Of a stretch of 64,000 nucleotides of DNA, positions 27,281 through 38,506 are shown piece after piece. The notes below the pieces were generated by a model, which searched no databases, was not told where the DNA came from, and saw nothing but the letters and a program-made list of their open reading frames with translations. The position numbers were made by a program, and so were the translations under genes. Origin of the DNA: Variovorax saccharolyticus. Lineage in GTDB: Bacteria > Pseudomonadota > Gammaproteobacteria > Burkholderiales > Burkholderiaceae_C. The stretch is taken from the NCBI RefSeq assembly GCF_030316765.1, contig NZ_JASZYT010000009.1:124001-188000 (forward strand), given 5' to 3'. How positions within the stretch are numbered: the stretch's first letter is position 1; every line of letters begins with the position of its first letter.

Positions 27281-28483
27281 TCAACTGCTCGTGCTCTCTG
27301 CCCCCAGGAAGCTCTCCGCCAGCAAGGCCCAGTAGGCCGCACCGATCGGCAGGTTGCTGTCGTTGAAGTCGTAGCCGGGGTTGTGCACCATGCAGCCCCC
27401 GTGCTCGCCGCCACGGCCATTGCCGATCATCAGGTAGCACCCGGGCCGCTTCTCGAGCATGAAGGCGAAGTCCTCGCTCCCGGTCACCTGTTCCGCCTGC
27501 ATCTCGACATGCGCATCGCCGACGAGTTGCCGCCCGATGCTGCGCGCGAAGTCGGTTTCCTCCGGCGTGTTGACGAGCACCGCGTAGCCGGGGCGGAAGT
27601 CGATCTCGGCGCGCACGCCAAAGCTCTCGGCCTGCGCCTGCACCACGGCTTTCAGCCGCTGTTCGAGCAGCACGCGCGTCTCGCGAGTGAGCGCGCGCAT
27701 GCTGATCTCCAGCGTGGCGGTCTGCGGAATGACGTTGTTGGCCTTCCCGCTGTGGATGGCACCCACGGTGACAATGGCCATCTGCTGCGGATCGGCGTTG
27801 CGCGACACCACGGTCTGCAAGGCCATCACGATGCTGGCGGCGGCGACGATCGGGTCGCGGGCGTGATGCGGCATCGCACCGTGCCCTCCCACGCCGTACA
27901 GCGTGACCGTGGCGTAATCCGACGAAGCCATGGTCGGGCCATCGCGGAAGGCCAGGTCACCCTGCCGCCGCCCGGGCATGTTGTGCATCGCGAAGATGGC
28001 GTCGCAGGGGTATTTCTCGAACAGGCCGTCGTCCATCATGCGCACCGCGCCGCCCATGCCTTCCTCGGCCGGCTGGAAGATCAGATTGAGCGTGCCCGCG
28101 AAGTCGCCTTCCGTCGCGAGGTACTGGGCCGCGCCGAGCAGCATGGCGGTGTGCCCGTCGTGACCGCAGGCGTGCATGATGCCGGGCCGGCGGCTGCTGT
28201 AGGCGAGGCCCGTCTTTTCCTCGATGGGCAGGGCGTCCATGTCGGCGCGGATGCCGACGCTCCTGCCGCCGCTGCCTCGACGCAGCCGGCCGACCACACC
28301 CGTGCCGCCGAGGCCGCGCTCGACCTCGTAGCCCCACTTCTGCAAGCGCTCGGCCACCAGCGCGCTGGTGCCGTGTTCCTCGAAGCCGAGTTCGGGGTTC
28401 TGGTGGATGGTCTGCCGCACGGTGACGAATTCGGGCGCATGGTCGCGCATGTACTGCAGATAGTGTTCGGGACTCTTGGGCAC
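27281..28483 (-). CDS. M20 family amidohydrolase (hippurate hydrolase type)
   Basis: The 400-residue protein is a di-zinc M20D amidohydrolase. Metal and catalytic motifs are GIRADMDALPIEEKTG, MHACGHDGHTAMLLGAA, FQPAEEGMGGA with the Glu pair, and the distal His in CMVHNPGYDF. Such enzymes cleave N-acyl amino acids or small amides. The start is GTG at 28483 with AAGGAG five bases before it. It closes the leftward peptide-transport operon and probably processes what the transporter brings in, after the M81 enzyme. Confidence 0.93.
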   Translation of the reverse strand: MPKSPEHYLQYMRDHAPEFVTVRQTIHQNPELGFEEHGTSALVAERLQKWGYEVERGLGGTGVVGRLRRGSGGRSVGIRADMDALPIEEKTGLAYSSRRPGIMHACGHDGHTAMLLGAAQYLATEGDFAGTLNLIFQPAEEGMGGAVRMMDDGLFEKYPCDAIFAMHNMPGRRQGDLAFRDGPTMASSDYATVTLYGVGGHGAMPHHARDPIVAAASIVMALQTVVSRNADPQQMAIVTVGAIHSGKANNVIPQTATLEISMRALTRETRVLLEQRLKAVVQAQAESFGVRAEIDFRPGYAVLVNTPEETDFARSIGRQLVGDAHVEMQAEQVTGSEDFAFMLEKRPGCYLMIGNGRGGEHGGCMVHNPGYDFNDSNLPIGAAYWALLAESFLGAESTSS

Positions 28484-28526: not shown

Positions 28527-30029
28527 TCAGGGGTTCAGGGACATCGAGGCCGGCAGCTTCGTCCACGGCAGGTCCGCCGGGTCGGCAGCCATCGGGCCCT
28601 CTGCCTTGGCCACGAGGATGTGGCTGGCGATCGGCGCGAAGTCGGCGCGAAAGTGCACCGAGCTCTTGTTGACGAGGATCTTCATCGTCTCGGGAGCGAT
28701 GCCGAGGAAGCGGAACATCTCCCGGTCCAGCATCTGCGTCTTCTGGGTGCAGATGCCGACCAGCACGCCCTGCACTTCGAGGCACGCGCTGGGGCCGAGG
28801 CGCACTTCGCCGCCCATGCCCATCGGGCCCTTGAGCGTGACGAGCCCGTCATGCAGCCGGCGCACCGTGGCGCGCACGACCACGGGTGCATCGCTCTGCC
28901 GGCCGCCCCAGGTCGGCACGCTGCGACCGAGTTGCACGTCGATGCGCGCACCCTCGCCGGCCGCATGCGCCTGCGCCGCGGCTTCAGGGTCCGCGAGCAG
29001 GCCGATCGCGACCTGGCCGGGAAAGCGCTCACCGGCTCCACAGGCCAAGAGCGCATGGAGCATGCCGGTGGTGTTGCTGTCTCCGCCAGCCCCGGGGTTG
29101 TCCTGCGTGTCGGCGATCACGATCGGCTTGTCCTCCTCGTCCGCGAGCGACATCGCCTGGCGCACCGCGGCGTCGGGAGTCTTCAGGTCCAGCCGCCACT
29201 GGCTGCGCGGCTGGTCCACGCGCGCGAAGAGCGCCTCGACCGCCGCCGCGGCCTCACCGCCATAGCCCCAGATCACCGGTCCGCATTCCGCGATGTCGGC
29301 GGCGGGAAAGCCCATCGCAAAGCTCAGCACGCTGCCGTGCCTTTGGTCGAGCCGCAGCAACTCGTCGTAGACCGCATTGGCCGGCGCGGTCATCGTGCTC
29401 TGGGCGTTGAGCGGCAGAAGGAAGTCCAGCCGGCGAACGGCCAGCGGTTCGCGTTCGCCGCGCTCGATGCGGCGTGCGAGCAGCGTCGCAGCGAGCGCAC
29501 CGGTGTCCTTCATGTCCACATGCGGATAGGTTCGGTAGGCGACGAGCGCATCTGCTGCCTCCAGCATCTGCGCCGTGACATTGGCATGCAGGTCGAGGCT
29601 CGCGACGATCGGCACCTGCGGGCCGACACGCGCACGGATGCGCGCGAGCAGTTCGCCTTCGGGATCGTCGAGGTGCTCGGCGACCGCCGCGCCGTGCAGG
29701 TCGAGGTAGACCGCATCGACGCCCGGCCCCGCGAGCGCAGCGCGCAGGTCCTCGTCGATATCGCCCGCAATGCGTTCGAAGGCATCGCGCACGACATGCG
29801 CGGAAGGGTTTGCGCCGGCCCATCCCGACGCGGTGAGCGACCAGCCCCGGGCCTCGGCTTCCACGATGAAGCCGCCGATCGGAATCGCCTTGCCGCGATA
29901 GGCCTCGATGATCGCGGGGCCGCGTCGGTAAGGCGGGAATCCCGAGCCTGCCTCGAAGGCGGCCCAGTCGGCACGGGTGGGCGCGAAGGTGTTGGTCTCG
30001 TGTTGGAAACCGGCGATGAAGACGTTCAT
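28527..30029 (-). CDS. M81 family metallopeptidase (MlrC-like)
   Basis: The 500-residue protein matches the MlrC family. It opens with VFIAGFQHETNTFAPTRADW, carries the metal-binding VASLDLHANVTAQML near residue 155, and has the C-terminal MlrC domain with DTQDNPGAGGDSNTTGML near 310. MlrC is named for microcystin breakdown, but most members degrade other small peptides or act as D-amino-acid or amide hydrolases. It follows the ABC ATPase gene by 42 bases and precedes the M20 gene by 43, on the same strand. Confidence 0.92.
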   Translation of the reverse strand: MNVFIAGFQHETNTFAPTRADWAAFEAGSGFPPYRRGPAIIEAYRGKAIPIGGFIVEAEARGWSLTASGWAGANPSAHVVRDAFERIAGDIDEDLRAALAGPGVDAVYLDLHGAAVAEHLDDPEGELLARIRARVGPQVPIVASLDLHANVTAQMLEAADALVAYRTYPHVDMKDTGALAATLLARRIERGEREPLAVRRLDFLLPLNAQSTMTAPANAVYDELLRLDQRHGSVLSFAMGFPAADIAECGPVIWGYGGEAAAAVEALFARVDQPRSQWRLDLKTPDAAVRQAMSLADEEDKPIVIADTQDNPGAGGDSNTTGMLHALLACGAGERFPGQVAIGLLADPEAAAQAHAAGEGARIDVQLGRSVPTWGGRQSDAPVVVRATVRRLHDGLVTLKGPMGMGGEVRLGPSACLEVQGVLVGICTQKTQMLDREMFRFLGIAPETMKILVNKSSVHFRADFAPIASHILVAKAEGPMAADPADLPWTKLPASMSLNP

Positions 30030-30071: not shown

Positions 30072-31739
30072 TCAACCCCGGCCGAAGGCGAAGCCTCGTC
30101 CCGGGGCGGCGGCCAGCAGTGCGCGGGTGTAGTCCTCGCGCGGCGCGAGAAGCACGTCGCGCGCCGGGCCCTGTTCGACGATCGCACCCTGGCGCATGAC
30201 GATCACGCGGTCGCAGATCTGGCTGGCGACGCGCAAGTCGTGCGTGATGAAGAGGATGCCCACGCCGGTCTTCTGCTGGATCTCGTCGAGGAGCTTCAGG
30301 ATCTGCGCCTGCACCGAGACGTCGAGCGCGGAGACCGCCTCGTCGGCGATCAGCAGCTTGGGCTCGCAGGCCAGGGAGCGCGCGATGCAGATGCGTTGGC
30401 GCTGCCCGCCGGAGAACTCGCTCGGGTAGCGCCGCAGCGCCTCGGGCTTGAGGCGCACCAGGTGCATCAGTTCCTCCGCGCGCTTCAAGGCCTTGTCGTA
30501 CGGGACGCCGAAGTTCAGCGGCCCTTCGATGATCGACGCGCCCACCATCTGACGCGGATTGAGGGAGCGATAAGGGTCCTGGAAGATGACCTGCACGTCG
30601 CGCCGGAACGGCGAGAGAAGCCGTCCGCGCAAATGCGCGACCGAGCGGCCGTTGGCGTGGATCTCGCCGGCGGTCGGGTCGATCAGCCGGGCAATGCAGC
30701 GCGCGAGCGTCGACTTGCCCGAGCCCGATTCGCCGACGATGCCCACGGTCTCCTTCGGACGCACGACCAGCGATGCTTCCTTGACCGCATGCACCTCGCG
30801 TCGCTTGCCTGGCCAGCTGCCGCTGACATAGGTCTTGACGATGCTGCGCGCATCGAGCAGCGGGAAGTTGTCGGTGACCGGCGGGCGCGGATGCGCCGCA
30901 AGCTCGGGCACCGCGGCCAGCAGCATCTTCGTGTAGGGCTCGCGGGGCTGCGTGAGCACGCTGCGCGCGGGCCCGCGCTCGATCATCTTGCCGAGCTGAA
31001 GCACCACGACCTGGTCCGCGATCTCGGCCACCACACCGAAATCGTGCGTGATGAACAGCACCGCAGTGCCGTTCTCGGTCTGGAGTTCCCGGATGAGCCT
31101 GAGGATCTCGGCCTGCGTGGTCACGTCCAGGGCGGTGGTGGGCTCGTCGCAGATCAGGAGCGCCGGCTTGAGGATCAGTGCGATCGCGATCACGATGCGC
31201 TGGCGCTGACCGCCCGAGAGCTGATGCGGGTACGAGTCGTACATGCGCGCGGGGTCCGGCAGCCGCACGCGCGCCATGATGTCGAGAATGGCCTGGCGGC
31301 GCGCCGGCTTGTCCATGCGCACATGCTGGGTGAGCACCTCGTCGATCTGCTCCCCGCAGGTCATGACCGGATTCAGCGCGGTCATCGGCTCCTGGAACAC
31401 CATCGCCATCGTCGGGCCGCGCAGCCTGCGGAACTCGGCCTGCGTGGCGCCGACCAGTTCGCGGCCATTCAGCTGGATCGATCCCGCAACCGGTGTCAGG
31501 CCCGGCGGCAGGAGGCCCATCACGGCGCTGGCGATCACCGACTTGCCCGAGCCCGATTCGCCCAGCAGGCAGACGATCTGGCCGGGCGGCACTTCGAAGC
31601 CGATGTGCTCCACGGCATTGGGGCGATCGGCGCCGCGCGGCAGCGCCACCGCCAGGTCGCGCACCGCGAGCACCGGTTGCACCGGCAGAGCCTCGCGTGC
31701 GGCGACTTCCTTCACTTCTTTCTCGACGGTCATCTGCAT
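30072..31739 (-). CDS. Dipeptide/oligopeptide ABC transporter, fused DppD-DppF ATPase
   Basis: This 555-residue protein carries two complete ABC ATPases in one chain. The first has Walker A GESGSGKSV near residue 60, LSGGQRQRI near 170 and DEPTTALD. The second has GESGSGKST near 345, FSGGQRQRI near 455 and DEAVSALDVS. Each half ends in an oligopeptide-transporter C-terminal region (YTKMLLAAVP, YTRALLAAAP). This double ATPase drives the DppB/DppC permeases encoded upstream. I chose the ATG at 31739, four bases past the DppC stop. Confidence 0.93.
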   Translation of the reverse strand: MQMTVEKEVKEVAAREALPVQPVLAVRDLAVALPRGADRPNAVEHIGFEVPPGQIVCLLGESGSGKSVIASAVMGLLPPGLTPVAGSIQLNGRELVGATQAEFRRLRGPTMAMVFQEPMTALNPVMTCGEQIDEVLTQHVRMDKPARRQAILDIMARVRLPDPARMYDSYPHQLSGGQRQRIVIAIALILKPALLICDEPTTALDVTTQAEILRLIRELQTENGTAVLFITHDFGVVAEIADQVVVLQLGKMIERGPARSVLTQPREPYTKMLLAAVPELAAHPRPPVTDNFPLLDARSIVKTYVSGSWPGKRREVHAVKEASLVVRPKETVGIVGESGSGKSTLARCIARLIDPTAGEIHANGRSVAHLRGRLLSPFRRDVQVIFQDPYRSLNPRQMVGASIIEGPLNFGVPYDKALKRAEELMHLVRLKPEALRRYPSEFSGGQRQRICIARSLACEPKLLIADEAVSALDVSVQAQILKLLDEIQQKTGVGILFITHDLRVASQICDRVIVMRQGAIVEQGPARDVLLAPREDYTRALLAAAPGRGFAFGRG

Positions 31740-31743
31740 GGTC

Positions 31744-32691
31744 CTACTCCCCGCGCTTGTTGAACTTGGGATCGAGCGTGTCGCGCAGACCGTCGCCCAT
31801 GATGTTGACGGCCAGCACCGTCGCGGCCAGGAAAATGCCCGGGAAGAGCAGGTTGTGCGGGTACTGCTTGAACTGGGCACGGCCCTCGGCCATGATGTTT
31901 CCCCAGGTCGCCATCTCGGCCGACAGGCCCACGCCGAGGAAGGACAGGATGGCCTCCACCAGGATTGCGGAGGCGCACACGTAGGTGCCCTGGATGATCA
32001 GCGGCGCGATGGCGTTGGGCAGGATGTGCCGCGCCAGCAGCTTCCAGGTCGGCGTGTCGAGCGCGATGGCGGCTTCGACATAGGGCTCTTCGCGCACGCT
32101 CAGCACCACCGAGCGCACCAGCCGCGCCACGCGCGGGATCTCCGGCACCGCGATCGCGAACACCACCGTCGCCAGCGTTCCGCCGAACAGCGCGACCAGG
32201 CTCACCGCGAACAGGATGCCGGGGATCGCCATCACGCCGTCCATGAGGCGCATGACGATGCCGTCGAGCCGGCGAAAGTAGCCGGCGCCGAGGCCGACGA
32301 TCAGTCCGAACACCAGGGCCACGACGGCTGCCGCGAGCCCTACCGTGATCGATACTCGCGCGCCGTAAAGCGTCCGGCTCCAGATGTCGCGCCCGAGGCT
32401 GTCGGTGCCCATGACGAACAGGTGGTTCTCGATCACGTCGCCCGAGAGGTTGTTGAAGTCGCCCCGGCTGCCGGGCATCAGGTTGCCGCTGCCGGGGTCC
32501 ATCGCGACCGGGTCGATGGTCCCCAGCCACGGCGCAAGAATCGCCATGGCGACCAGCAGCACCAGCACGCCGCCGCCGAAGCGCACAGCGCCGTTGGCGA
32601 GCACGCGGCGCCACAGCGTCTTGCGCCGGGGAGGCGGTGCCTCGGTCGCCGGATCGGTGGACAAGGGGTCCAGAAGGGCTTGTTGCGTCAT
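31744..32691 (-). CDS. Peptide ABC transporter permease, DppC type
   Basis: The 315-residue membrane protein has a cytoplasmic N-terminal tail (about 40 residues, PPPRRKTLWRRVLANG), then six helices with the OppC N-terminal feature LAPWLGTIDPVAMDPG and the permease EAA loop region near residue 215 (VREEPYVEAAIALDTPTWKL). It ends in GDGLRDTLDPKFNKRGE, the classic DppC/OppC C-terminus. It pairs with the DppB subunit encoded 10 bases upstream. Confidence 0.94.
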   Translation of the reverse strand: MTQQALLDPLSTDPATEAPPPRRKTLWRRVLANGAVRFGGGVLVLLVAMAILAPWLGTIDPVAMDPGSGNLMPGSRGDFNNLSGDVIENHLFVMGTDSLGRDIWSRTLYGARVSITVGLAAAVVALVFGLIVGLGAGYFRRLDGIVMRLMDGVMAIPGILFAVSLVALFGGTLATVVFAIAVPEIPRVARLVRSVVLSVREEPYVEAAIALDTPTWKLLARHILPNAIAPLIIQGTYVCASAILVEAILSFLGVGLSAEMATWGNIMAEGRAQFKQYPHNLLFPGIFLAATVLAVNIMGDGLRDTLDPKFNKRGE

Positions 32692-32701
32692 GGACTTTCC
32701 T

Positions 32702-33643
32702 TCAGTAACGGATGCGCGGATCGAAGACCAGGTAGCTCAGGTCCACCAGCAGGTTGACCAGCACGTAGATCACCGAGAAGAAGAGCGTGATGCCCTGGAT
32801 GAGCGGGAAGTCGCGCGAGAGCACCGCGTCCACCGTGAGCGAGCCGAGCCCGGGGATCGCGAACACCGACTCGGTGACCACCACGCCGCCGATGAGCAGG
32901 GCGATGCCGATGCCGATGACCGTGACAATGGGCACCGCCGCGTTCGCCAGCGCATGGCGCATCAGCACGCGCACTTCCGGAATTCCCTTGGCGCGCGCGG
33001 TCCGGATGTAGTCCTCCGTCATCGCTTCGGCCACCGCCGCGCGGGTGACGCGCGCGATCAGCGCGACGTAGATCACCGACAGCGCCACCGCCGGCATGAC
33101 CAGGTTGCGCAGCCACGGCCAGAAGCCGTCGGCGATGCGGTTGTAGCCCTGCACAGGAAGCCATTGCAGCTTGAGCGCGAAGAACCAGATGAGCAGATAG
33201 CCGATCACGAACACCGGCACCGAGAATCCCAGCGCCGAGAAGCCCATCAGCGCGCGGTCCAGCCATCCGCCGTGGCGCCACGCGGCCAGCACGCCGAGCG
33301 GCACCGCGATCAACAGCGTGAGCAGGAGCGTCACGCCGGCGAGTGCGAGGGTCGGCTCGATGCGCTGGCCGATCAGTTCGACGACCGGCTTCTTCATGAA
33401 GAAGGACTCGCCGAGGTCGCCCCGCAGCAACTGCGAACCCCAGCGGCCGAACTGCACCGGCAGCGGATCGTTCAGACCGAGGTTGGTGCGCACCTGGGCG
33501 AGGTTCGCGGTCGTCGCGTTGTCGCCCACGATGGACGCCGCTGGATCGCCAGGAGCCAGCCGCGTCATCAGGAACACGATCAACGCCACCACCGCCAGAA
33601 CAGGAAGCGTGGCGACGATGCGCCGGAGCAGGAAGGCCAGCAT
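32702..33643 (-). CDS. Peptide ABC transporter permease, DppB type
   Basis: The 313-residue protein begins with the DppB pattern MLAFLLRRIVATLPVLAVVA and MTRLAPGDPA. It has six membrane helices, the EAA loop (EDYIRTARAKGIPEVRVLMR) and ends in LVDLSYLVFDPRIRY. The ATG lies just after the stop of the binding-protein gene, so translation is coupled. It forms the transmembrane channel with DppC. Confidence 0.94.
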   Translation of the reverse strand: MLAFLLRRIVATLPVLAVVALIVFLMTRLAPGDPAASIVGDNATTANLAQVRTNLGLNDPLPVQFGRWGSQLLRGDLGESFFMKKPVVELIGQRIEPTLALAGVTLLLTLLIAVPLGVLAAWRHGGWLDRALMGFSALGFSVPVFVIGYLLIWFFALKLQWLPVQGYNRIADGFWPWLRNLVMPAVALSVIYVALIARVTRAAVAEAMTEDYIRTARAKGIPEVRVLMRHALANAAVPIVTVIGIGIALLIGGVVVTESVFAIPGLGSLTVDAVLSRDFPLIQGITLFFSVIYVLVNLLVDLSYLVFDPRIRY

Positions 33644-33645
33644 GG

Positions 33646-35220
33646 TCAGTTCTTCCTGATGCCCCAGAGCACGCCCACCGGACCCGACACCAGGCCGGAG
33701 ACGACGCCCTTGCGATAGGCCGTGAGCGGCTTGTACTCGCCCACCGGGGCGAACACGGCGGCGTCGAACACGCGTTCCTGGATCTTCGTGGCGAGCGCCT
33801 TGCGCTGCGCCTCGTCGCTGGTCTTGAGGAACTCGCCTTTCAGATTCTCGAGCTCGTCGTCGGTGGTCCAGCCGAACCAGCCCTTCTCGCCATTGCCCGT
33901 CATTGGCGCGAAGTACATCGGGTTGATGTTGTCCGCGAGGCCCCAGCCGGTGATGAAGGCATTCCATCCGCCTTCGCTCGCGGGCTTCTTCACCGCGCGC
34001 CGGGTCACCAGCGTAGGCCAATCCATCGACTGCATGTCCACGTTGAAGCCGGCCTGCTTGAGCAGCGCCGCCATCACCGGCGGGAACTTGTTGATCGCCG
34101 GAAAGTTGGCCGGGTACAGGAGAACGATCGGCTCGTTCTTGTAGCCGGCCTCCTTGAGCAGCGCCTTCGCCTTCTCGAACTGCGGCTTGCCGGTGAAGTA
34201 GGAGGTCTTGGCCGAGTGATAGATGCTGCCGCTCGGGTAGATGGAGTGGTTCGTGTTGTACAGCTCCTTGTGCACCATCTGGGCGCGCAGCAGCGCTTCC
34301 TGGTTCATCGCCATCAGCGCAGCCTGCGCGATCTTCGCGTTGTTGAAGGGCGGCACGAGGCGGTTCAAGTGCAGCGCGTAGGAGCCGGTAGGCACCGGGC
34401 TCGCGAGCTCGATCTTGGGATCATCCTTGAGCGCCAGGTACTGTTCCGAAGGCACCCACTCGATCATGTCCACCTCGCCGTTGGCGAGTGCGTTGGCCTG
34501 GGTCTGGGCATCGTTGAGAACGACCCATTCCATGCGGTCCACGTGGACCAGCTTGCCACCCGCGGTGCCGCTCGCGGCTTCCTTGCGCGGCACGTACTTG
34601 GTGTTCTTGACGTAGACGATCTTCTCGCCCGGACGGTACTCGTCCGCCTTGAAGATGTACGGGCCCGAGCCGACGGTGCTGTTGATCTGCTGGTCTGCCG
34701 GCGTCTCGGCAACCGCCTTGGGCATGATGAAGGGCGGGTTGGAAGAAGGCTTGGACAGCGCCTCCAGCACCATGCCGAAGGGCTCCTTGAAGCTCATCAC
34801 GAAAGTCTTGTCGTCCTTCGCCTCCATGCTGGCGAGCGCTGCCAGCATCTTCTGGCCGAGCCCGTCGCGCTGGCCCCAGCGCTTGATGGACTGGATCGCG
34901 TCGGCCGAGGTCACCGGCTTGCCGTCGTGAAAGGCAAGCCCATCGCGCAGCGTGAAGGTCCAGGTGTTGCCGTCGGCGCTGCGGTTGTAGGCGCCCACCA
35001 TCTGCGGCTGCACCTTGCCCTGAGCGTCGACGCCGAAGAGCGTGTCATACACCGCGTAGCCATGGTTGCGCGTGATGAAGGCGGTGGTCCAGATCGGGTC
35101 GAGGATCTTCAGGTCGGACTGCGGCACGATGCGCAGCACTTTGTCCTGCGCCTGGGCGAGCGGCGCCAGGCCGATGAGGGCGGCGCCGATCAGGGCGGCA
35201 ACGAGAGGCTTCTTGAACAT
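33646..35220 (-). CDS. Peptide ABC transporter substrate-binding protein (family 5)
   Basis: The 524-residue protein has a signal peptide (MFKKPLVAALIGAALIGLAP, cleavage after AQA near residue 24) and the SBP family 5 fold: RIVPQSDLKILDPIWTTAFI, then WTFTLRDGLAFHDGKPVTSA near 90, and a C-terminal FAPVGEYKPLTAYRKGV. Relatives bind peptides, glutathione or amino-acid conjugates. It heads the transporter genes, 58 bases after the MarR gene, followed by DppB, DppC, ATPase, M81 and M20. Confidence 0.93.
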   Translation of the reverse strand: MFKKPLVAALIGAALIGLAPLAQAQDKVLRIVPQSDLKILDPIWTTAFITRNHGYAVYDTLFGVDAQGKVQPQMVGAYNRSADGNTWTFTLRDGLAFHDGKPVTSADAIQSIKRWGQRDGLGQKMLAALASMEAKDDKTFVMSFKEPFGMVLEALSKPSSNPPFIMPKAVAETPADQQINSTVGSGPYIFKADEYRPGEKIVYVKNTKYVPRKEAASGTAGGKLVHVDRMEWVVLNDAQTQANALANGEVDMIEWVPSEQYLALKDDPKIELASPVPTGSYALHLNRLVPPFNNAKIAQAALMAMNQEALLRAQMVHKELYNTNHSIYPSGSIYHSAKTSYFTGKPQFEKAKALLKEAGYKNEPIVLLYPANFPAINKFPPVMAALLKQAGFNVDMQSMDWPTLVTRRAVKKPASEGGWNAFITGWGLADNINPMYFAPMTGNGEKGWFGWTTDDELENLKGEFLKTSDEAQRKALATKIQERVFDAAVFAPVGEYKPLTAYRKGVVSGLVSGPVGVLWGIRKN

Positions 35221-35278: not shown

Positions 35279-35737
35279 TCAGGTCATGAAGCGCCGCGCA
35301 TCGAGCGCATCGCGCTCCACCTGTGCCGTGAGGCGATCCAGGCAGCGGTCGAACAGCGCACGGTCCGAATCGCTGAGCACGCTCAGGAGCGAGCGCTCCA
35401 TCTTTCGGCCCAGGCGGTTGCACTGCCGGACGATGTGACGGCCTTCGTCGGTGAGGTGCAGGTGCACCCAGCGCGCGTCCTGCGCACCGATTTCGCGCAC
35501 CAGCAGCTGCCGCCGAGCCAGCGAAGTGATCAGTTTGGACACCAGCGTCTTCTCGAGCCGGCTCGCTGCCACGACCTCGCCCTGCGTGATGCCCGGCGTG
35601 GCATAGGCAAGCCGCAGCACACGCAGTTCGCGCAAGCTCACGCCGTGCGCCTCTTCGTAGACTTCGGTGGCCAACTGCTTGGCCTGGTCGTTGAACACGT
35701 CGATGCGAAAGGTGAGGAATTCGCTCAAGCCCGTCAT
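35279..35737 (-). CDS. MarR family transcriptional regulator
   Basis: The 152-residue protein has the MarR winged helix (VSLRELRVLRLAYATPGITQ, then AASRLEKTLVSKLITSLARR with wing AQDARWVHLHLTDEGR) between dimerisation helices. The start is taken at 35737 because GGAGCAGCAC precedes it; the ATG at 35749 lacks a ribosome site. It lies upstream of the peptide transporter operon on the same strand and downstream of a glycine riboswitch, so its own expression probably depends on glycine. It may regulate the transporter or be cotranscribed with it. Confidence 0.9.
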   Translation of the reverse strand: MTGLSEFLTFRIDVFNDQAKQLATEVYEEAHGVSLRELRVLRLAYATPGITQGEVVAASRLEKTLVSKLITSLARRQLLVREIGAQDARWVHLHLTDEGRHIVRQCNRLGRKMERSLLSVLSDSDRALFDRCLDRLTAQVERDALDARRFMT

Positions 35738-35907
35738 GTGCTGCTCCATCGATAAACCATCGGGTGCGATTGGAAATAGTTGCTGAATGCAACCATTGCA
35801 GACGAAGGAGCAGCATTCGTGCCGGGCATTTCGCACCATCAGCGGGCGGCTTGCCGGAAACGAAGAAAGTCGGAAAAGAGATGGGACAGTGACACGGGGA
35901 CCTCTGC

Positions 35908-35940
35908 GACGGGCGCAGCCATGGCTGCGCCATGGCCGTC
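35908..35940 (-). promoter_or_regulatory. Hairpin after the glycine riboswitch (likely expression platform)
   Basis: GGCGCAGCCATGGCTGCGCC (35912-35931) is a perfect 20-base palindrome, and GACGG/CCGTC pairs around it with a bulge. It begins immediately after the second aptamer and lies about 175 bases before the MarR start. No T-run follows, so it is not a plain terminator. It may be part of the switch or an unrelated structure. Confidence 0.5.
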
Positions 35941-36147
35941 ATCCCGCGCTGTCCCTTGTGCCTGAGAGATTCACCGCGCCCGCCCTGTGCGCTTGCGGCT
36001 TGCCCCTTCGGCGGCCGGCCCGGTTGATCCGGCCAGCGCTCTCCAGCGTGTTGGTGCATCCAGTCCTGGAACCTGAGCGTTCGTGGGAACTACGCCTTCG
36101 GTAACGCACCGTCGTAGCTCATGGCGGCGCATTTCTCCTGGATGCGG
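35941..36147 (-). ncRNA. Tandem glycine riboswitch
   Basis: Two glycine aptamers stand in tandem, read leftward. Aptamer 1 (about 36147-36055) has the P1 stem GCATCCAG/CTGGATGC, then GGAGAA, TTACCGAAGGCGTAGTTCCC and GCTCAGGTTCCAGGACTG. Aptamer 2 (about 36050-35941) has CGCTGGAGAGCGC, CCGCCGAAGGGGCAAG, AATCTCTCAGGCACAAGGGA and CAGCG closing P1. These are the conserved cores of the class, joined by a short linker as in the usual cooperative form. The next gene in its direction is MarR (35737), then the peptide transporter, not gcvTHP. Confidence 0.93.
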
Positions 36148-36209
36148 TTGGATCGGTTGCACTTTGCGTGCCAGCCAGTCTTGTCCATGAAGGTCGCACG
36201 CGCCACCCC

Positions 36210-36240
36210 TTGACCCTGTAGCGGGTACAGGGTGTGAAAT
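36210..36240 (+). promoter_or_regulatory. MerR-type promoter/operator of the metal ATPase
   Basis: TTGACC (36210-36215) and TGAAAT (36235-36240) are separated by 19 bases, the overlong spacing of MerR-controlled promoters. The spacer holds perfect 8-base arms ACCCTGTA and TACAGGGT around a 5-base centre (36213-36233). The CadR/PbrR-type protein of 10962-11396 has an almost identical site in front of its own gene. Confidence 0.85.
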
Positions 36241-36259
36241 AGCCATGAAAGCGACATTC

Positions 36260-38506
36260 ATGGCCAGACACCTTCACGAACACACACCCGCGGAAGCCGC
36301 CGCAGCCGATGCCTGCTGCGGTCCCGCTGCCTGCTGCGGCCCCGCCGCGCCGGCGGCCCCCGACGCCGCGGCGCCCAACACCTTCCGCATCGCCACCATG
36401 GACTGCAGCGTCGAGGAGTCCGAGATCCGCCGGCTGGCGGAGCCGATCGCCGGGATCCGCGGCCTGCACTTCCGCCTGCCCCAGCGGACGCTGCGCATCG
36501 ACGGCAGCGACGACGCGGTGCAGCGGGCGCTGGCGGCGATCCGCAAGGCCGGCTTCGTCCCCGAGCCGCTGGCAGCGGCCGCGCCCGCCGGCAACGCAGC
36601 CGGTGGCGAGATGCACGAACACGCCGCCACCGGCCACGCGCGGCTGGCGGCGGCGCTGGCCCTCGCCCTGGCGGCCGAAGCCGTGTCCTTCTTCGCTCCC
36701 GACACCACCGCCTGGGCCGGCGCGGGGATGGCGGTCGCGGCGGTCGCGATCTGGCTGGCCGGGCTGGAGACCTACGCCAAGGGGCTGACCGCGCTGCGCC
36801 ACGGCAAGCTCAACATCAACGCGCTCATGTCGGTCGCCGTGACGGGCGCCTTCGTCATCGGGCAATGGCCGGAAGCCGCGATGGTGATGGCCCTCTACGC
36901 GATCGCGGAACTGATCGAGGCACGCGCGGTCGACCGGGCGCGCAACGCGATCAAGGGGCTGGTCGGGCTCGCGCCCGACGCCGCCGAGGTGGCTCAGCCC
37001 GACGGCGGCTGGCGCCGCATCAAGGCCAGCGAGATTCCGATCGGCGCGATCGCGCGGGTGAAGCCCGGCGAACGCGTGGTGCTCGACGGCGTCGTGACCC
37101 GGGGCCACAGCAGCATCGACCAGGCCCCGGTCACGGGCGAGAGCATCCCGGCCGACAAGGAGCCCGGCAGCCCGGTCTTCGCCGGCACCATCAACCAGAA
37201 CGGCGAACTCGAGTTCCGGGTGACCGCGCTCGCCGACGACTCCACGCTGGCCCGCATCATCCATGCCGTCGAGGAGGCCCAGGGCACCCGGGCCCCGACC
37301 CAGCGCTTCGTCGATCGCTTCGCGGCGATCTACACGCCCGCCGTGTTCGCTCTCGCGCTGGCGGTGGCCGTGCTGCCGCCGCTGCTGCTGGGCTGGCCCT
37401 GGCTCGTCGCCGTCTACAAGGCGCTGGTGCTGCTGGTGATCGCCTGCCCCTGCGCGCTGGTCATCTCGACCCCGGTCACGGTGGTCAGCGGACTGGCGGC
37501 CGCCGCCCGCCGCGGCATCCTGATCAAGGGCGGCGCCCACCTGGAGCACGCCCGCCTGCTCAAGGCCGTGGCCTTCGACAAGACCGGCACGCTGACCGAG
37601 GGCAAGCCCAGGCTGGTGGCCTTCCAGGCCTGGCGCCAGGCCGACGAGGACCAGGCACGGCGCTGGGCACGCAGCCTGGCGCTGCGCTCCGACCATCCGG
37701 TGTCGATATCGATCGCCCAGGGCCTCGAAGGCGAGGCGCTGCCGATCGACGGCTTCAAGGCCCTGCCGGGACGCGGCGTCGAGGGCGTCGTCGACGGCCG
37801 CCCGATGGTGCTCGGCAATCGCCGCCTGATCACCGAGCGGGGCCAGGCCGATCCGGCGCTCGAGGCCGAACTGGCGGCCCACGAGGCACAGGGCCGCACG
37901 ATCACGCTGCTGGCGGACGCGCACGGCGCGCTGGCGCTGTTCGCGGTGGCCGACACCCTCAGGCCCAGCTCGGTGGCGGCCATCGCCGCGCTGCGGCAGC
38001 TGGGCGTCGCGCCCGTGATGCTGACCGGCGACAACCCGGCAACGGCCCTGGCGGTCGGCCGCGAGGCCGGCATCGACGATGCCCGCGGCGGACTGCTGCC
38101 GGACGACAAGCTCTCGGCCATCCAGGACATGCGACGGCGCTACGGCCCGACCGGCATGACCGGCGACGGCATCAACGACGCGCCGGCCCTGGCCCAGGCG
38201 GACATCGGCTTCGCGATGGGCGGCGCCGGCACCGACACCGCCATGGAAGCCGCCGATGTCGTGATCATGAACGACCAGCTCGGGCGCGTGGCCGAGACCA
38301 TCCGGTTGTCGCGCCGCACCCACGCGGTGCTGTGGCAGAACATCACGCTGGCGCTCGGGATCAAGGCGGTGTTCTTCGTGCTGGCGGTGTTCGGCAGTGC
38401 CACGATGTGGATGGCGGTGTTCGCGGACATGGGCGCCAGCCTGCTGGTGGTGGCCAATGGGCTGCGGCTGCTGCGCGGCGTGCCGGCGCCTTTTCGTTCG
38501 CCTTGA
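36260..38506 (+). CDS. cadA: Heavy-metal P-type ATPase (Cd/Zn/Pb exporter)
   Basis: This 748-residue P1B ATPase pumps soft divalent metals out of the cytoplasm. A His/Cys-rich tail (HLHEH, then two CCGPA repeats) precedes one heavy-metal domain at about 40-110 with MDCSVEES. Core motifs are TGES, the membrane CPC with Cys396, Asp440 in DKTGTLTEGK, SDHPVS and TGDGINDAPALAQA. The open frame also has an ATG at 36245, but the -10 box ends at 36240, so a transcript from that promoter would start after it. I therefore use the ATG at 36260. The metal is inferred from the CadR/PbrR-type promoter and the cysteine-rich tail. Confidence 0.93.
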   Translation: MARHLHEHTPAEAAAADACCGPAACCGPAAPAAPDAAAPNTFRIATMDCSVEESEIRRLAEPIAGIRGLHFRLPQRTLRIDGSDDAVQRALAAIRKAGFVPEPLAAAAPAGNAAGGEMHEHAATGHARLAAALALALAAEAVSFFAPDTTAWAGAGMAVAAVAIWLAGLETYAKGLTALRHGKLNINALMSVAVTGAFVIGQWPEAAMVMALYAIAELIEARAVDRARNAIKGLVGLAPDAAEVAQPDGGWRRIKASEIPIGAIARVKPGERVVLDGVVTRGHSSIDQAPVTGESIPADKEPGSPVFAGTINQNGELEFRVTALADDSTLARIIHAVEEAQGTRAPTQRFVDRFAAIYTPAVFALALAVAVLPPLLLGWPWLVAVYKALVLLVIACPCALVISTPVTVVSGLAAAARRGILIKGGAHLEHARLLKAVAFDKTGTLTEGKPRLVAFQAWRQADEDQARRWARSLALRSDHPVSISIAQGLEGEALPIDGFKALPGRGVEGVVDGRPMVLGNRRLITERGQADPALEAELAAHEAQGRTITLLADAHGALALFAVADTLRPSSVAAIAALRQLGVAPVMLTGDNPATALAVGREAGIDDARGGLLPDDKLSAIQDMRRRYGPTGMTGDGINDAPALAQADIGFAMGGAGTDTAMEAADVVIMNDQLGRVAETIRLSRRTHAVLWQNITLALGIKAVFFVLAVFGSATMWMAVFADMGASLLVVANGLRLLRGVPAPFRSP

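Follow-up and report, generated by a model that had tools for sequence, protein, structure and literature searches.

Among the targets of glycine riboswitches, the accessible part of Sun et al. (2013; PMC3766115) names glycine metabolism, glycine transporters and serine metabolism, and the available portion of PMC12452182 describes gcv genes as enriched in Pseudomonadota. For glycine switches in front of transporter genes the literature, as far as the accessible text of PMC6944388 presents it, leans to lowered uptake. The open-access library searched contained nothing that we could find on a glycine riboswitch in Variovorax, and its titles and the opening lines of its abstracts yielded none placed before a transporter-peptidase operon.

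The locus analyzed here resembles the gcvT tandem riboswitch (RF00504), of which its own genome has one, in having two adjacent aptamers with the same cores. It differs from the gcvT switches in its target, a peptide-type ABC importer with hydrolases, in helix P3b of aptamer 1 (1-2 pairs against 3-7 in gcvT) and in a sigma-54-type start at helix P1. With the glycine/alanine transporter switches, as characterized in the available part of PMC6944388, it shares an importer target and a better kept aptamer 2, but in place of a symporter it has a Dpp/Opp-type ABC importer accompanied by peptidases. The switches before dadA-like genes of Variovorax have a different target, a FAD oxidoreductase. The MarR-headed Dpp/M20 operons of Burkholderiales have the same core gene order and an operator before MarR; unlike the window operon, no glycine switch was found in them.

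The tandem switch and its operon

The window, i.e. the whole stretch of 64,000 nucleotides of Variovorax saccharolyticus DNA that was analyzed, contains an RF00504 tandem glycine riboswitch on the minus strand at 36145-35947. The initial annotation had recognized it by eye with the right coordinates and had proposed a covariance-model search, which matched both aptamers. Aptamer 2 was matched at 36056-35939 (-) with 50.8 bits, the gathering score being 32 (E 1.8e-7, 64-kb search), and aptamer 1 with 46 bits, also above the cut-off, at G000:C25:160051-160150, corresponding to window positions 36150-36051 (-), in a whole-genome search. The two matches overlap by 6 bases; the 64-kb search dropped one overlapping match of the same clan. 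The elements of the switch and the genes behind it are as follows.

36056..36145, minus strand: glycine aptamer 1, from P1 to P1 (RF00504, 46 bits; P3b comparison)
35947..36048, minus strand: glycine aptamer 2, core and P3b intact (RF00504, 50.8 bits; alignments)
35279..35737, minus strand: MarR-family regulator (PF12802/PF01047)
33646..35220, minus strand: family 5 solute-binding protein (SBP, SBP_bac_5), regular first gene after the switch (PF00496; synteny)
32702..33643, minus strand: DppB/OppB-type permease, BPD_transp_1 (PF00528, PF19300)
31744..32691, minus strand: DppC/OppC-type permease, BPD_transp_1 (PF00528, PF12911)
30072..31739, minus strand: double-domain ABC ATPase, ABC_tran, with a presumed start codon (PF00005 in two stretches, PF08352)
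28527..30029, minus strand: M81 / MlrC-like metallopeptidase, DUF1485 + MlrC_C (PF07364, PF07171)
27281..28483, minus strand: M20 amidohydrolase, Peptidase_M20 (PF01546; TIGR01891)

The domain families agree with the gene calls made earlier (MarR, Dpp-type transporter, M81, M20). The nearest solved relatives do not name a substrate: they are an IAA-amino acid hydrolase homologue and an acyl-glutamine aminoacylase for the M20 protein, a putative metallopeptidase and microcystinase C for the M81 protein, and an unnamed family 5 protein, 8vdx, for the SBP. A search of the open-access literature on 8VDX found nothing relevant. Further hydrolases (M20, alpha/beta hydrolase, asparaginase, amidohydrolase) neighbour the operon in a few switchless relatives, and L059 has about 1.4 kb extra between its ATPase and M81 genes, before 16577, compared with L041 and L052.

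Relatives of the locus were fetched from genome_contigs with the SBP as query, flanks included, and the best 80 of 458 were kept. An aptamer-core pattern found the tandem switch upstream of the SBP gene, on the operon strand, in 12 of these 80 best relatives (of 458), all of them Variovorax. The pattern overlooks some true switches, such as that of L189, which was seen by Rfam and by covariance model R1; the count was therefore repeated with R1. At E < 1e-5 this model returned the same 12 of 80 loci, and 17 of 30 loci from a sample of 100 genomes of Variovorax, a soil bacterium and the genus of the closest named loci. Strains are shared between the 12 loci from genome_contigs and the 17 from the genus sample, and the two sets are not independent. 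The automatic structure of R1 is poor (10 pairs), yet it recovers the L189 control; it gave one strong match for each operon locus, and four weaker matches among the 80 loci (E 0.14 to 0.95) were taken as chance. Rfam gave no glycine match in 14 of the 68 switchless loci. Of the genus loci, 17 of the 19 closest (SBP identity at least 71%, own locus included) carry the switch, as against none of the 11 more distant ones fetched. Sequence and position of the tandem are kept in 17 Variovorax loci, own included, beyond what chance would give.

In the relatives the switch always precedes the same SBP gene, and M81 and M20 genes lie downstream in 12 of 12 switch loci. In eight of the 12 it stands directly before the SBP, with no MarR homologue in the fetched stretch (tblastn, at least half length); MarR lies between switch and SBP in three, as in the window, and behind the operon in L046. 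Because of these eight loci MarR is ruled out as the conserved target, which, judged by gene order, is the transporter operon. This comparison, suggested in the initial annotation, bears out only part of its proposal that glycine controls the MarR-headed uptake and hydrolysis system: the switch belongs to the operon on strong comparative grounds, but MarR is not its regular partner.

In aptamer 1, helix P1 can be read from the sequence as GCATCCAG (36145-36138) paired with CTGGATGC (36063-36056). This helix and the GGAGAG, CCGAAGGGGCAA and AATCTCTCAGG motifs of aptamer 2, all quoted in the initial annotation, are present. Alignments of both aptamers were obtained for all 17 genus loci, and the linker between the matched aptamer blocks measures 8-11 nt in 16 of these; the pattern overlooked aptamer 1 of L027. 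Aptamer 1 has GGAGAAA instead of GGAGAG in all 17 operon switches, and its P3b retains only 1-2 pairs (2 in the window), compared with 3-10 pairs for P3b of aptamer 2 in 17 of 17 and with 3-7 pairs for aptamer 1 P3b in 23 of 23 gcvT switches (best-scoring matches plus the one from the own genome). Since P3b is intact in aptamer 2 while that of aptamer 1 is eroded, aptamer 2 is likely to be the main glycine sensor; overall conservation gave no clear sign, with between-clade identities of 0.779 for aptamer 1 and 0.793 for aptamer 2. The riboswitch class is canonical and its target is unusual.

Predicted start site and leader

Elements on either side of the aptamers were located in the window as follows.

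36158..36173, minus strand: putative sigma-54-type promoter P1, TGGCACGCAAAGTGCA (GG-N10-GC), 11 of 12 consensus positions
35884..35954, minus strand: possible expression platform, weakly indicated (folds; four loci, no compensatory change)
35839..35895, minus strand: 18-codon frame VSLSHLFSDFLRFRQAAR behind GAGG, from GTG 35895 to TGA 35839, open in 4 of 4 window-clade loci
35809..35824, minus strand: putative second sigma-54-like site P2, CGGCACGAATGCTGCT, which would bypass the switch
35777..35795, minus strand: predicted MarR operator TGGTTGCATTCAGCAACTA, found before MarR in 10 of 10 loci

Sites were scored against the sigma-54 consensus TGGCACG-N4-TTGCW. Upstream of aptamer 1 the loci share TGGCA(C/T)(G/A)CA-N3-TGC(A/T), with GG-N10-GC without exception. 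The site agrees with the consensus at 10-12 of 12 positions, in the same place, in 13 of 13 loci, and was present in 17 of 17 genus loci, where the predicted start falls 3-6 bases ahead of CCAGGAGA and 0-2 bases ahead of the first base of helix P1. For the window this puts the predicted start of transcription near 36147, two bases ahead of the P1 helix in aptamer 1. The sequence farther upstream differs between loci, which have several distinct neighbours.

Although 36158..36173 is the only window site with a score of at least 11, scores of at least 10 occurred at 313 positions on both strands of the 80 loci (2.97 Mb), operon sites included. In the own genome the pattern with one mismatch allowed was found at 78 sites, as against 62 for the reversed control, so that one match alone means little; the case for a sigma-54 promoter is carried by conservation and not by the single match. 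The own genome has an RpoN gene. No NtrC-like enhancer was found in the 300 upstream bases of 13 loci with an NtrC consensus. A gene for a ZntA-like heavy-metal P-type ATPase (36245-38506), divergent from the switch, starts so near the sigma-54-type site that any enhancer would probably lie inside it. Between the two, about 40 bases from the sigma-54-type site, the palindrome ACCCTGTAGCGGGTACAGGGT (36213-36233) precedes the ZntA-like gene; we take it to be of MerR type. No sigma-54-type site scoring at least 10 was detected at the two dadA-like loci of the own genome (L002, L003). The conserved sigma-54-type site, with its predicted start at helix P1, is new in this analysis.

Behind aptamer 2 the window could form a helix between GGACAGCG (35954-35947), the 3' strand of aptamer-2 P1, and CACUGUCC (35891-35884). 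This candidate helix encloses a GGCGCAGCCAUGGCUGCGCC hairpin (35931-35912) and is followed by a pyrimidine-rich tract. In the four rows of the window clade 81% of its cells are paired, with no compensatory change, and a slide of 3 covaries better. Folded from 35951, the window leader favours a local hairpin (z -2.2); the full leader is hardly stabler than its shuffles (z -1.4). The switch-only clade has a hairpin of up to 18 pairs starting within the 3' strand of aptamer-2 P1. In 11 distinct rows 91.9% of its cells are paired, as against 35-61% in slid controls, and one such hairpin folds 4.3 sd below shuffles; its sequence changes do not exceed those of shuffles, 54 of 500 of which equal it in covariation score, and a single pair is changed on both sides. 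A simple scan detected no classic terminator on the switch strand, and no SD-blocking platform emerged. Because the presumed inhibitory hairpin shares the 3' strand of aptamer-2 P1, the anatomy mildly favours an ON switch over an OFF switch.

The start of the 18-codon frame overlaps the stretch that is able to pair with the P1 3' strand. The frame is free of indels in 4 of 4 window-clade loci, and its variable columns number 10, 10 and 12 of 17 at the three codon positions; this evenness means that no selection on the peptide is visible. Longer frames between switch and MarR are interrupted by indels elsewhere in the stretch. The initial annotation had allowed for a conserved small gene at 35740-35900 as the true target; a frame open in four of four loci is indeed there, but with no coding signature that proposal is weakened. 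Leader frames of the switch-only loci have differing ends and reading frames, and one of 13 loci (L017) has none. Among L018-L029, several loci have a short frame starting MTSVRAHRA or MTSIRAPRA, 97-157 bases before the SBP.

MarR, related switches and history

A palindrome of the type TAGTTGC-N5-GCAACTA was found, at 10-13 of 14 positions, in 10 of 10 loci with MarR ahead of the SBP. The window, L042 and L043 were the source of this consensus, drawn by eye, and only the other loci can therefore serve as a test of it. Before the SBP itself the palindrome occurs in L043 (13), L046 (11), four Paraburkholderia (12 each) and one Pseudomonas (13); no score above 9 was reached in the 8 switch-only loci or in the other 16 of 41 loci that were examined. 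Allowing one mismatch, the own genome contains it twice, once at 35777..35795. It sits at about the predicted start of P2. P2-like sites (9-11 of 12) were found in the four window-clade loci and in L042, L043 and L046, scored in the genus copies L016, L015 and L017. No MarR orthologue of at least 55% identity was found in any of the 12 switch-only genomes, one of which is 89% complete (best match 39%); the other 6 genomes examined have one. MarR, with a conserved predicted operator of its own, would thus be the older regulator of the operon, and in the window clade the comparison places switch and MarR layer in series.

The switchless operon of Variovorax dw_308 in the genus sample (L016, G263:C93:68721-69752) has two tandem MarR copies (55% and 70% identity to that of the window). 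L061, L062, L063, L073 and L075 (Paraburkholderia, Pseudomonas) have the operator palindrome before the SBP with no MarR found ahead, and in three of them (L061, L063, L075) a sigma-54-like site lies there as well. A SECIS_3 match over the Rfam cut-off was seen at L056 2868-2810 (-), on the contig that carries the switchless operon of Pusillimonas noertemannii.

In the SBP tree (44 rows) three changes suffice for the 13 switch rows, compared with a mean of 11.5 for shuffled rows, and none of 500 shuffles was as low. L042 (Variovorax sp. dw_308) and L043 (Xenophilus sp.) have no switch yet are placed among switch rows. The grouping of L043 with L046 has full support, that of L042 with the window clade no more than 86/72, and support is 87/84 for the fork that contains every switch row along with L042, L043 and the switchless L060. 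In L042 and L043 no glycine aptamer reached the Rfam gathering score, and no switch remnant was found by Rfam at E up to 5 in L015 and L016 (genus copies of L043 and L042) and L030. One gain with two losses, in L042 and L043, fits these data, since the switches within each clade align end to end; three separate gains may also account for them.

Glycine switches occur at three more places in the own genome. One is a tandem ahead of gcvT; the others, on contig C12, are a second tandem and a single match preceding two neighbouring FAD oxidoreductase genes. NCBIfam assigns one target to GcvT and two to D-amino acid dehydrogenase (dadA-like), one of the latter below the model cut-off. Whole-genome Rfam searches found glycine switches in 18 of the 22 genomes behind switchless loci. 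Five of these places were looked up (G298:C93, G299:C128, G299:C81, G317:C2, G300:C35) and each lies before a dadA-like gene with 40-90% identity to those of the own genome; G317 is also the genome of L047, which carries the operon's own switch. The tandem at G300:C35 (L189 4242-4439, Alcaligenaceae MAG, contig of L053) stands before its dadA-like gene some 11.6 kb upstream of a switchless MarR-SBP operon (L053). In some Variovorax (L121, L123, L124) a more distant dadA-like gene, of about 38% identity, has a single glycine aptamer with GGGAGAGACTGGC in front of it. P3b of aptamer 1 in the dadA-type switches has one pair and a similar TCCCA loop in three loci; a fourth row, L002, mixes two neighbouring switches. 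As aptamer 1 shares this short, nearly unpaired TCCCA-type P3b loop, the operon switch may be derived from a dadA-type switch.

Alternative readings and meaning

Structural match, conservation and gene order of switch and operon are direct observations. We read the tandem glycine riboswitch as the 5' end of the mRNA of a peptide/amide uptake-hydrolysis operon, with a sigma-54 start and gating through aptamer 2, and give this reading a probability of roughly 0.7. Transcription would start at the sigma-54 promoter, so that the RNA opens with the P1 helix of aptamer 1. The intact aptamer 2 would be the main sensor, and glycine would decide expression past the switch, over the 156-728 nt that separate it from the SBP gene, by a competition of aptamer-2 P1 with a downstream hairpin sharing its 3' strand. 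A second sigma-54-like promoter, the MarR operator and MarR would act in series behind the switch in the window clade. In switch-only loci MarR, operator and P2 were not found, and the switch is the sole local regulator recognised.

The same switch and target could also work as an OFF switch, glycine from imported peptides shutting the importer as in the glycine/alanine symporters; we regard this as a distinct possibility, if short of probable. The accessible part of PMC6944388 describes transport-gene glycine switches as lowering uptake, with aptamer 2 better conserved, and all 17 operon switches have an intact aptamer 2 next to an aptamer 1 from which P3b pairs have been lost. Yet the dadA-type switches of the genus have the same eroded aptamer 1 (three loci), for which reason the erosion is uninformative on the sign, and a hairpin sharing the P1 3' strand is the layout of an ON attenuator. 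It is unlikely that in the window species P2 and MarR drive the operon while the switch governs a minor or aborted upstream transcript. P2-like sites in the window clade, L042, L043 and L046, with the MarR operator near the predicted start, would agree with this, but none of the four window-clade loci has lost the switch or the upstream site, and in switch-only loci no other element was recognised.

The upstream -24/-12-like site itself could be some other conserved element, with transcription starting elsewhere. A pattern barely above control genome-wide and the failure to find an NtrC-like enhancer (300 nt, 13 loci) speak for this; we nevertheless consider it decidedly unlikely, given the fixed GG-N10-GC and nearly fixed spacing to helix P1 in 17 of 17 loci and a simple scan that found no sigma-70-like promoter at 35700-36300. 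Still less probable is that in the window clade the switch first controls the 18-codon frame in the leader, GTG 35895 to TGA 35839, and that translating this frame would decide read-through to MarR and the operon. The same stop in 4 of 4 loci, GAGG ahead and the position of the start are compatible with that; against it stand the even spread of variable columns, the small set of only four related loci, and a frame in switch-only leaders that is different and poorly kept. That the switch serves MarR specifically, and the operon only via MarR, is scarcely credible: MarR follows as the next long gene in the window and in three loci closely related to it, but the SBP itself is next in 8 of 12 switch loci.

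Returning to the riboswitch at the proposed 5' end of the operon mRNA, its distribution suggests that RNA sensing has taken the place of a protein sensor here. Most simply, an operon under MarR control would first have acquired the switch; one clade would later have lost MarR along with the operator and promoter, and the window clade would have retained both regulators. We put forward tentatively, as somewhat short of even odds, a fuller version. An ancestor with MarR and a sigma-54-like promoter would have gained a sigma-54-driven tandem switch, apparently of dadA type; the window clade would be a preserved intermediate with both regulators in series; most examined switch-bearing Variovorax would have lost MarR, operator and promoter. 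Nitrogen limitation (through sigma-54) and glycine would then form an AND gate on the import of glycine-yielding peptides or acyl-amides.

Such a switch would extend the glycine regulon from glycine breakdown and uptake to a whole pathway of peptide uptake and cleavage, and would couple a riboswitch with an apparent sigma-54 promoter through a start at helix P1. It gives a testable handle on the substrate of M81/M20-linked importers. Loci with MarR only, with both regulators and with the switch only would form a natural series for the takeover of an operon by a riboswitch from a transcription factor.
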